Part shown: piece by piece, positions 4,201-29,309 of the stretch
How positions within the stretch are numbered: the stretch's first letter is position 1
Layout: every line of letters starts with the position of its first letter
Source: Chloroflexota bacterium
GTDB lineage: Bacteria > Chloroflexota > UBA6077 > SHYK01
Direction of reading: 5' to 3'
Length of the DNA stretch: 37,053 nucleotides
Assembly (NCBI GenBank): GCA_035652535.1
Contig: DASRDP010000085.1
Coordinates: forward strand, 1-37,053
The notes under the pieces: generated by a model
Database searches by the model: none
Told to the model about the DNA's origin: nothing
Seen by the model: only the letters and a program-made list of their open reading frames with translations
Program-made: the position numbers and the translations under genes

Positions 4201-5481
4201 ATGCTAAGCAAGGAAGAAAACGATCTATTGACACGCGTTGGACCCGGCACGCCCGGTGGCGACCTTCTTCGTCGCTACTGGCAGCCGGTCGCGCTCGCCG
4301 AGGAGTTGCCTCCCGACGGGCCCCCCATCCCGGTGCGGCTTCTCGGCGAGGATCTCGTGTTGTTCCGTGAGCCCTCGCTCGGCCCAGGCGAGCCCGGACG
4401 GCCTGGCCTGCTCGGAATTCACTGTGCGCACAGGGGCGCCGATCTGAGTTACGGCCGCCTCGAGGATGGCGGCTTGCGGTGCATCTACCACGGCTGGCTG
4501 TACGACGGGCGCGGACGGTGCCTCGAGCAGCCAGGAGAGCCGGCTGGGTCGACGTTTCACGAGCGCGTGCGTCAACCAGCGTATCCGTGCCAGGAGGTCG
4601 GCGGGCTGATCCTGGCGTATCTGGGTCCCGGCGAGCCCCCGCTCGTACCGAATTATGAGTTCCTCACGGCTCCGCAGGAGCAGTGCTACCCCACGAAGCT
4701 CTTTCAGGAGTGCAGCTACCTGCAAGGAAATGAGGGCAACATCGACCCGTCCCACCACTCGTTTCTTCACCTGCGCTACGGCGAGGGCGAGGACAGCCAA
4801 TTTACCTGGTACGCTGGGGACCGCTCACCCACCATCGAGACAGAGGAGACGGCGTACGGTGCGAGGATCTACGCCATCCGCCGGATCGACGAGCACCGCA
4901 ACTACATCAAAATCACGAACTTCATCCTCCCCAATCTCAGCGCCATCAGCGGCGACGCGGACGGATACGGCGTGAACTGGCACGTGCCGATCGACGACAC
5001 CCACCACTGGAAATACAACCTGACGTTCCGTCGGTCGCGCGCCATCGACAAAGCAGTCCGCGCCCGCGGACGGACGAGCATGACGGCCGATTATCACCCA
5101 ATTCGCCACAAGGAGAATCGGTATCAGCAAGACCGAGCTGAGATGCGGGGGATTACGTTTGCGGGTCTCGGGCGGGATTTCCAGGCGCAAGACGCGTGTG
5201 TGACCGAGGGCGCGGGCCCTATCCAGGATCGGTCGACCGAGCACCTGGGCTACACCGACAAGGGCATCATCGCGGCCCGAAAGGTGTTGCTCCGAGCGCT
5301 GCGCGCTTCGCAGGCGGGTCAGGATCCCGCGCACGTGATTCGTGATCCCGCGGACAACAGCTTCTCAGATCTGTTTGCCCGGAAGGACGTGGTCCCGGTG
5401 GAGCTCGGGTGGAGTCGGTACTGGGAGCGCGAGGCGGCCGAGGGCCAGCGGGTGCTCGCCCTCACAACGGGCACCGCGTAG
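4201..5481 (+). CDS. Rieske [2Fe-2S] aromatic-ring oxygenase, alpha subunit (phthalate dioxygenase / LigX type)
   Basis: Non-haem iron oxygenase of 426 residues, the usual size for a homo-oligomeric Rieske oxygenase. The N-terminal Rieske domain has ligands Cys75, His77, Cys94 and His97 (CAH and CIYHGW). The catalytic mononuclear iron site is DPSHHSFLH at 182-190: Asp182 bridges the two centres and His185 and His190 bind iron. A GAGGGGG ribosome binding site lies about five bases upstream of the ATG. Known relatives include phthalate 4,5-dioxygenase and O-demethylases such as LigX. No reductase or ferredoxin gene is in the window, so electrons must come from elsewhere. It lies tail to tail with the UbiD gene, nine bases apart. 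It could be a ring dioxygenase or a demethylase; sequence alone does not decide. Confidence 0.9.
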   Translation: MLSKEENDLLTRVGPGTPGGDLLRRYWQPVALAEELPPDGPPIPVRLLGEDLVLFREPSLGPGEPGRPGLLGIHCAHRGADLSYGRLEDGGLRCIYHGWLYDGRGRCLEQPGEPAGSTFHERVRQPAYPCQEVGGLILAYLGPGEPPLVPNYEFLTAPQEQCYPTKLFQECSYLQGNEGNIDPSHHSFLHLRYGEGEDSQFTWYAGDRSPTIETEETAYGARIYAIRRIDEHRNYIKITNFILPNLSAISGDADGYGVNWHVPIDDTHHWKYNLTFRRSRAIDKAVRARGRTSMTADYHPIRHKENRYQQDRAEMRGITFAGLGRDFQAQDACVTEGAGPIQDRSTEHLGYTDKGIIAARKVLLRALRASQAGQDPAHVIRDPADNSFSDLFARKDVVPVELGWSRYWEREAAEGQRVLALTTGTA

Positions 5482-27402: not shown

Positions 27403-28731
27403 TTATGCAGCGGCGGTCCCTGGCTCTACGCGTGTGAGCGCGGGCGCGGGGGCGCGACGGTCGCGCACCCATAGCCAGGCCGCCCCGAGCGCGGCCAGCG
27501 CGGCGATGGCGGCGATGATTCCGCCAAGGATGGGAATCGTCGTGATGAGCACGAAGATGACCAGTCCGACCAGCAGTGTGGCCACGCGGCCCTTCGCCCA
27601 TGGCGCTTCCATCCGATCGAGCAGGAGCTTCCCGCCGAGGAAGCTGACGACCGCCTGCGACACCAGCAACGCAAAGACGCTCAGCGAGACGAGGAGCGCT
27701 GCCTCCGCGAGAAAGCCGACCACCAGGCTGAGGCCGGCGAGGGCGGGCAACGTGATGACACCGAACGCGATGGCCAGCGCCATCGTGCCCAGGCAGATGC
27801 CGATGGCGACCCCCAGTGCCCCGAACGACGCGACGATGCCCCATCCGATGCTCGGGAGCGGCCGCGCCGAGATCGTCGCAGCCATCTGCTCAGTCCATCT
27901 CGGCGCGAGCCAGAGCAGAAGCAGGCCGGCGATGGCGATGGCGATCAGACGGCGCACGGTATCCGCCACCGCGTCCCCGAAGGTGCGCTGTGGCGGCGAA
28001 GCCGGTTGCTGCGCCGTCCAGTGCGTGCCCTGTTCGACGGCGCCGTACACCGGGAACTCGCGGGTCGAGGTATAGCTCAGACTGCCACCGATGTGCGCAC
28101 CGGGTTCGACCGCGAGCCCCGCCGGAACGTTGGGAATGACGATCGAGGGCGGGGGCGAGGTGATCGTGACGGGCTCGCGCGCATCGCTCGCGCCCACGGA
28201 GACCTCCACGTTTCGCCCGACCTGTCCGAGGACGGCCAGGCCCGCCATGCCTCCGCGCACGTCGCGGTCGACGGTCCCGGCGAGCATCGCCTGCGAGCCG
28301 CCAATGAGCACGTCGCGGCCGATGGCGCTCCCGGGGAGGGTTTCGAGGCTGTAGCCGAGAAACATGAGGTCGCGGCCGACCCGGGCCGTGCTGCCGATCT
28401 GCACCCCCTGGGCCGCGACGCGCGCGGTGTCGCGGACCGTGCCGTTCACGATGACGGTCTGACCGGCGGCCATGAGGGTCCCCTCGACCGTGCCGTTCAC
28501 GATGACGGTCTGACCGGCGGCCAGCACGTCCCCTCGGACGACGCCGTCGATGGTCACGCTCCTCGCGGCGACGTACAGATCGTCGTCAACCACCGAGTCC
28601 GGACCAATGGTGATCTCCTCGCCGCTTCGGGCGTCGAAGGCATAGGCCGAGGGGACCACGATCGCCGTCGCGAGGGCGAGGCCGAGGACGAGGGGGAGCA
28701 GGTGCGGGTGCGGAACTCGAATTCTTGTCAT
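27403..28731 (-). CDS. Exported bactofilin-like beta-helix protein with C-terminal membrane domain
   Basis: A 442-residue envelope protein, ATG 28731, with AGGAG eight bases upstream. A signal peptide (about 1-31, ending SAYA) is followed by a right-handed-helix type repeat region (about 38-190) with hydrophobic-glycine steps such as ITIGPDSVVDDDLYVAARSVTIDGVV. This resembles the polymer-forming (bactofilin, PF04519-like) fold. Two identical 12-residue units AAGQTVIVNGTV (71-82, 88-99) are encoded by a perfect 37-base repeat. The C-terminal third has four membrane segments (about 267-287, 302-330, 340-375 and 383-425). Known bactofilins lack signal peptides; exported membrane-linked variants are less studied. 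The order signal, helix, membrane suggests a surface or periplasm-facing scaffold. Confidence 0.82.
   Translation of the reverse strand: MTRIRVPHPHLLPLVLGLALATAIVVPSAYAFDARSGEEITIGPDSVVDDDLYVAARSVTIDGVVRGDVLAAGQTVIVNGTVEGTLMAAGQTVIVNGTVRDTARVAAQGVQIGSTARVGRDLMFLGYSLETLPGSAIGRDVLIGGSQAMLAGTVDRDVRGGMAGLAVLGQVGRNVEVSVGASDAREPVTITSPPPSIVIPNVPAGLAVEPGAHIGGSLSYTSTREFPVYGAVEQGTHWTAQQPASPPQRTFGDAVADTVRRLIAIAIAGLLLLWLAPRWTEQMAATISARPLPSIGWGIVASFGALGVAIGICLGTMALAIAFGVITLPALAGLSLVVGFLAEAALLVSLSVFALLVSQAVVSFLGGKLLLDRMEAPWAKGRVATLLVGLVIFVLITTIPILGGIIAAIAALAALGAAWLWVRDRRAPAPALTRVEPGTAAA
28436..28523. repeat. Two 37-base direct repeats inside the bactofilin-like gene
   Basis: Bases 28436-28472 and 28487-28523 are identical over 37 bases, offset by 51 bases (17 codons). 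They encode the AAGQTVIVNGTV unit twice. Identity at the DNA level suggests recent duplication or gene conversion of one beta-helix turn. Confidence 0.9.
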
Positions 28732-28743
28732 GCGTCACACTCC

Positions 28744-28780
28744 TGGCGGCGCCTCAGAGCGGAGGCTCGGGGCGCCGCCA
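28744..28780. terminator. Hairpin between the Tyr-rich gene and the bactofilin-like gene
   Basis: TGGCGGCGCC (28744-28753) and GGCGCCGCCA (28771-28780) form a perfect 10-base stem, and a small inner stem GAGC/GCTC sits in the loop. It lies just after the stop of the tyrosine-rich gene and just before the start of the next gene on the same strand. It may be a terminator or a processing/attenuation hairpin. Confidence 0.65.
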
Positions 28781-28796: not shown

Positions 28797-29255
28797 CTAG
28801 TAGTACCACCACGGGTACGAGTACCGGTAGGATGGATACGAGTAGTAGGTAAAGGGATACGCATAGTAGCGCGCGGTGTACCAGTTCAGCGGGTAGTTGT
28901 AGTAGTACCAGCTCGATGGGTAGTAGTACGGATAGCTGCCGTAGGCGTAGTACGGGTATGAGCTGTAGGAGTAGTAGGGGTAATAGCTGGAGTAGTAGGA
29001 GGGATAGTAGTAGTAGTCGTAGTAGGCGTAGGGCGAGTAGCCGTACGGGTAGTACCCGTAGTACTGCGCCGCGTGGACGGTCGGGTCGGTGTCACCTGGC
29101 GATGCCAACGAGCCGTCGGCTGTCGGCGAAGTGGCTATGGCGGCGTCCGAGGGGGACGGCTGGGCCTCGCCGCCTGAGGCGGCAAATGCCTGCGAGGTCA
29201 GGGCGGCGAGGATCAACAGTGCCGCGAAAAATGACGCGATTTTCGGCGTGCGCAT
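28797..29255 (-). CDS. Secreted tyrosine-rich low-complexity protein
   Basis: A 152-residue exported protein. The ATG at 29255 has GGAGGA seven bases upstream. Residues 1-25 are a clear signal peptide (ASFFAALLILAALTSQAFA), followed by an Ser/Asp/Pro/Thr-rich spacer (26-62). The last 89 residues contain about 44 Tyr, with Pro, Ser, Trp and few charged residues, in irregular YYxYPY patterns; there is no Cys. The signal peptide and ribosome binding site argue for a real gene rather than a GTA-rich repeat. I recognise no family. Tyr-rich exported proteins can form adhesive, crosslinked or metal-binding layers, but that is speculation. The neighbouring bactofilin-like gene may be functionally linked. 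Confidence 0.82.
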   Translation of the reverse strand: MRTPKIASFFAALLILAALTSQAFAASGGEAQPSPSDAAIATSPTADGSLASPGDTDPTVHAAQYYGYYPYGYSPYAYYDYYYYPSYYSSYYPYYSYSSYPYYAYGSYPYYYPSSWYYYNYPLNWYTARYYAYPFTYYSYPSYRYSYPWWYY

Positions 29256-29309
29256 CGGATTCCTCCAATCTTGTTCTCACAACGGACTGTCGGGAGCTGT
29301 GTCGCGATG

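Follow-up and report, generated by a model that had tools for sequence, protein, structure and literature searches.

Five dispersed genes for exported, half-tyrosine proteins as candidates for a surface material in a Chloroflexota genome

The genome of a Chloroflexota bacterium holds five stand-alone genes of one design, dispersed over five contigs, each encoding a signal peptide followed by a body in which tyrosine makes up about half of the residues (~45-52%). The genes are genuinely coding, and their design is absent from 28 relatives of the same class. The explanation that we favor, with about an even chance of being right, is that their products are Sec-exported, probably disordered proteins that would self-associate into structural material of the cell surface. 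The first-pass annotation, which saw only one of these genes, had proposed an adhesive, oxidatively cross-linked, metal-binding or redox-active surface material; an exported tyrosine-rich surface material stands as the best reading, and the particular chemistries are treated below as rivals to it.

The gene first noticed, C85, lies in the window, i.e., the 37,053-nucleotide stretch of contig DASRDP010000085.1 analyzed here (Table 1). Both of its ends had been placed correctly at first pass; the coding strand is the minus strand, and the plus-strand reading contains three stops. The ribosome binding site and signal peptide claimed at the same time are likewise present, the latter reading MRTPKIASFFAALLILAALTSQAFA (signal peptides of all genes were assigned by eye). 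Also borne out is a Cys-free, half-tyrosine tail rich in Pro, Ser and Trp: next to Tyr, its 88 residues include 13 Ser, 11 Pro, 4 Trp, 3 Gly and 2 Asn, few charged residues and neither Cys nor His. Tyrosine accounts for 2.5% of residues across 15 confident window genes, and the binomial probability of at least 44 tyrosines in 88 positions is 4e-46. Codon choice in the tail follows the genome bias (TAC 38 : TAT 6; GC3 of 0.89 versus 0.82 in reference genes). The AF2 model, computed from a single sequence and thus of low confidence by default, shows the signal helix within a block of pLDDT up to 90 and assigns no secondary structure to the tail, which is weak evidence for disorder. A sigma-70 promoter was looked for, and none was found.

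Table 1. Coordinates of the window features and of the four like-designed genes on other contigs
Feature	Position	Strand	Basis or remarks
Tyr-rich exported protein gene C85 (P0001), 152 aa	28797..29255 (29255..28797 in coding direction, stop TAG included)	-	no internal stop; genome codon usage; one of five like-designed genes
Shine-Dalgarno GGAGG, 6 nt before ATG	29262..29266	-	sequence
Sec signal peptide, residues 1-25, likely cut AFA|AS	29181..29255	-	sequence; AF2 helix 5-25
Ser/Ala/Pro/Gly/Asp linker, residues 26-64	29064..29180	-	sequence; low-confidence AF2 model
Tyr-rich tail, residues 65-152, 44 Tyr in 88	28800..29063	-	composition; AF2 pLDDT ~40
G+C-rich hairpin after C85 stop, no U-run	28743..28780	-	z -1.8 and -2.5 in two analyses
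Neighbor: exported bactofilin-like domain plus transmembrane segments	27403..28731	-	Pfam PF04519, E 1.8e-6
C115	L053 8759-9202	+	147 aa, 46 Tyr, 3 Cys; TTG start behind AAAGGAGG
C152	L054 9430-9846	-	138 aa, 53 Tyr, 2 Cys
C163	L162 5923-6417	+	164 aa, 67 Tyr
C104	L163 1835-2233	-	132 aa, 48 Tyr, 2 Cys

The other four genes were found by scanning the assembly (168 contigs, 98.3% complete, 4.6% contamination) for the codon pattern YYxYYxY combined with an open reading frame scan, and then for the looser YYxYY. YYxYY sites number 19 in this genome, compared with 3 in its control and 0 to 8 in relatives. Two traits, both present in C85, define membership in this in-genome family, A1: a Sec signal peptide, and a Tyr-rich body that reaches the C terminus and contains 40% Tyr or more. 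A profile of all five proteins recovers the five, by construction, and no sixth in the genome. Each gene combines a ribosome binding site, a signal peptide, a Tyr-rich body and a hairpin no more than 75 nt past the stop (z of -2.5 for C85, -2.2 for C115, -3.4 for C152, -4.6 for C163 and -4.3 for C104); in C163, a U-run follows soon after, as in a classical terminator. The likely signal-peptide cut is A|Q in four of the five proteins, and two or three cysteines occur in three of them (C115, C152 and C104). Stretches from all five contigs have a G+C content of 0.65 to 0.67, and the genes are therefore not obviously foreign. Their neighbors are mostly metabolic and unrelated to one another. Upstream of the five genes, a search for a common motif gave only pairwise 9-mers, apparently no more than would arise by chance.

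The signal-peptide motif LRWxxLPxL, common to C163, C152 and C104 and absent from C115 and C85, argues for common descent of the three that carry it. Since composition drives the alignment of Tyr-rich tails, common descent with C115 and C85 is not established, and the kinship of C85 with the other four would rest on composition and layout rather than on a signal-peptide motif. Having neither LRWxxLPxL nor cysteine, C85 may thus have joined the group by convergence.

The first-pass annotation had named frame disruption in sister strains, as a sign of a spurious open reading frame, among the outcomes that would undo its claim. A spurious frame is very unlikely given that the genome has four others built alike, and a low-complexity artifact or microsatellite is, all things considered, scarcely credible. 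Tandem Repeats Finder (TRF) does report weak arrays with periods of 3 to 24; against such an origin stand the Shine-Dalgarno sequence, signal peptide and hairpin found in five genes, as well as the adherence of the C85 tail to codon bias. A microsatellite origin of the tail is further countered by codon identity within repeated 5-mers of the C85, C115 and C152 tails, which lies about at the level expected from codon usage (5/10 versus 5.9, 15/40 versus 18.0 and 149/280 versus 141.4). Because codon agreement does not exceed this expectation, tail repetition is not the product of recent DNA duplication, and the repeats either date far back or are maintained at the level of the protein.

The search for homologues in relatives, whose absence was the other outcome that was to undo the first-pass claim, had a split result: none appeared in 28 relatives of the class, yet the genome itself supplied the four further genes described above. 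The A1 profile had no match in the 28 other genomes of the class, and a stricter codon pattern found no other open reading frame of comparable kind in 400 genomes of the phylum. Where the pattern did match in these class and phylum genomes, it had picked up a lone motif or noise; the exception is G101 (L034), whose real Tyr-rich stretch is internal and contains 35% Tyr over 60 residues. The same-family sample comprised only four other genomes, 76 to 88% complete; therefore, closer relatives could still hold copies. With no orthologue of C85 found by the profile in the 28 class genomes, selection on this gene is not directly measurable. A BLAST-type protein search gave two weak matches in relatives, one over signal peptide and linker and the other with internal stops, and no confirmed match in a search of genome contigs. 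The statement that no close bacterial family is known holds for Pfam and NCBIfam (no family matching C85 at E up to 0.1) and for PDB (no match); a literature search of partial coverage likewise found no bacterial family of Tyr-rich exported proteins. These proteins escape similarity searches, probably on account of composition, whereas the codon pattern with an open reading frame check found five in one genome.

In the mechanism that we propose for the favored surface material, small Sec-exported proteins would present a probably disordered mature part dominated by tyrosine, with Ser, Pro, Gly and Asn as spacers. Once outside the membrane, the chains could be held together by Tyr-Tyr stacking and hydrogen bonds as a dense coat, sheath or matrix. 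Disulfides may come in with the cysteine-bearing members, and oxidative dityrosine bonds might harden the material, by analogy with oocyst walls. Short Tyr-rich peptides do self-assemble in vitro, and the disulfide-linked YYACAYY forms sheets (PMC6382316). A bulk structural material is favored over a catalyst because several similar, presumably independently expressed copies are present. An exported protein of 454 residues encoded elsewhere in the genome (L181, contig C36, 6947-8308, plus strand) looks Ig/Fn3-like, and its Gly/Tyr-rich linker terminates in GYPGYPGY stretches; the protein may be part of the same surface material.

Competing explanations differ mainly in what the tyrosines would be for. 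If covalent cross-linking were the point of the sequence, a secreted laccase or peroxidase would join the tyrosines into dityrosine, as is believed for the Tyr-rich regions of Eimeria GAM56 and GAM82 in the oocyst wall (PMC2726925). Cu-oxidase domains occur in the genome on contigs C5 and C13; yet the multicopper oxidase genes are one laccase-like gene that is frame-broken in the assembly (C13) and one that looks NirK-like (C5), neither is linked to any of the five genes, and a search of the genome for DyP peroxidase gave no match. A tyrosinase search was also silent, as was its control, and on balance we find the cross-linked coat doubtful. The laccase-like gene (L160, C13, ~4763-5460) encodes a two-domain multicopper oxidase split over two frames, either by assembly error or because the gene is broken. 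A surface glue or a redox or metal-binding layer, in which the phenols would serve as ligands of metals or minerals, as charge carriers or as a sacrificial antioxidant, is unlikely: no cytochrome or metal gene was recognized among the neighbors seen, and the C85 tail offers few charged residues and no histidine, even though tyrosine is redox active, Tyr-rich sheets give oxidation peaks (PMC6382316), and a screen modeled on mussel adhesion proteins returned Tyr-rich diatom proteins, one of them in the cell wall (PMC4220933).

Two further readings assign C85 to a known kind of partner or compartment. In sulfur globule proteins, small size and export go with a high content of Gly, Tyr and Asn, and the tail of C163, too, has abundant Gly and Asn besides its Tyr. 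SgpA-C resemble C85 in small size, export, low complexity and high Tyr content, but they are dominated by Gly and tied to sulfur storage. An envelope protein of this type lining an extracytoplasmic inclusion is highly unlikely, given that C85 matches no Pfam or NCBIfam family and its tail, poor in Gly and Asn, has none of the Gly-dominated Gly/Tyr/Asn repeats. Somewhat less remote, and still quite unlikely, is that C85 serves as an accessory of the neighboring extracytoplasmic bactofilin-like membrane protein, the two forming one scaffold unit. The genes share a strand, lie ~65 nt apart and possibly form one operon, and the PF04519 match passes the Pfam cut-off. On the other side, a hairpin separates them, the best homologue of the bactofilin-like gene (G001, 46%) lacks a Tyr-rich gene next to it, and the other four copies, beside which no bactofilin gene was recognized, give no support to an operon. 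The hairpin itself, which may act as a terminator or attenuator ahead of the bactofilin-like gene, is the weakest of the five: its stem is interrupted, and the longest uninterrupted stem is no better than those of shuffles. Within the bactofilin-like gene, a near-identical direct repeat of ~50 nt (window 28433-28530) encodes GQTVIVNGTVEG and GQTVIVNGTVRD.

Returning to a self-associating surface material, we tentatively extend it to a lineage-specific 'tyrosine coat', a possible prokaryotic counterpart of the Tyr-rich oocyst-wall proteins, in which the five proteins would self-assemble into an aromatic surface layer, while Methanothrix and several bacterial phyla would have arrived at similar materials on their own. 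If such a coat is formed, prokaryotes have evolved tyrosine-based materials several times. Coccidian GAM56 and GAM82 share with C85 secreted Tyr-rich regions, which are proposed to form a tough wall; they differ in being eukaryotic, in their larger N-terminal part and in the dityrosine linking proposed for them. CotC and CotU of Bacillus are also small and Tyr-rich, but these spore coat proteins are rich in Lys and Asp, have no known Sec signal peptide and are known from sporulation only.

A codon scan of 84,980 species for YYxSYYPYY returned 103 stretches. At least 25% Tyr over 60 residues was found in an open reading frame at 49 of the scanned loci, only two exceeding 50%; most encode exported proteins or lipoproteins of Bacteroidota, Poribacteria, Aminicenantes, Nitrospirota and others. 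Tyr-rich exported proteins thus recur across phyla, probably by convergence; among the loci examined, however, it is unusual for a genome to carry several copies of a short design with the tyrosines in the tail only. The proteins from Bacteroidota, Poribacteria and Aminicenantes resemble C85 in export and in their YYxSYYPYY stretches. Unlike C85, which has no cysteine anywhere and hence no lipobox, they mostly carry a lipobox Cys, and their Tyr segment, usually 30 to 48% Tyr over 60 residues, is internal and followed by a Ser/Arg/Asn-rich end. Widespread lipoproteins, largely from Bacteroidota (L103, L107, L108, L119, L148 and others), have a Tyr/Trp/Gly-rich center and a Ser/Arg/Thr/Asn-rich end; we know of no family description for this type.

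A like layout occurs in Methanothrix, where 7 of the 26 genomes of the genus, that of L134 included, encode members of a family of exported proteins with a half-tyrosine tail (L134, JAUCQD010000053.1). Like C85, this family (L134 and six relatives, L173-L179) has a signal peptide, a short linker and a C-terminal tail of about half Tyr, most members ending in aromatics; unlike C85, it is archaeal and has a conserved DWLS core before the tail, and homology between the two is not demonstrated. The Methanothrix tail appears to be under purifying selection (dN/dS of ~0.1-0.6 by crude counting on short gapped alignments, many of the pairs having a dS of about 1 or more). The DWLS motif is conserved in L134 and its relatives, and an EF-1alpha gene lies beside L134.
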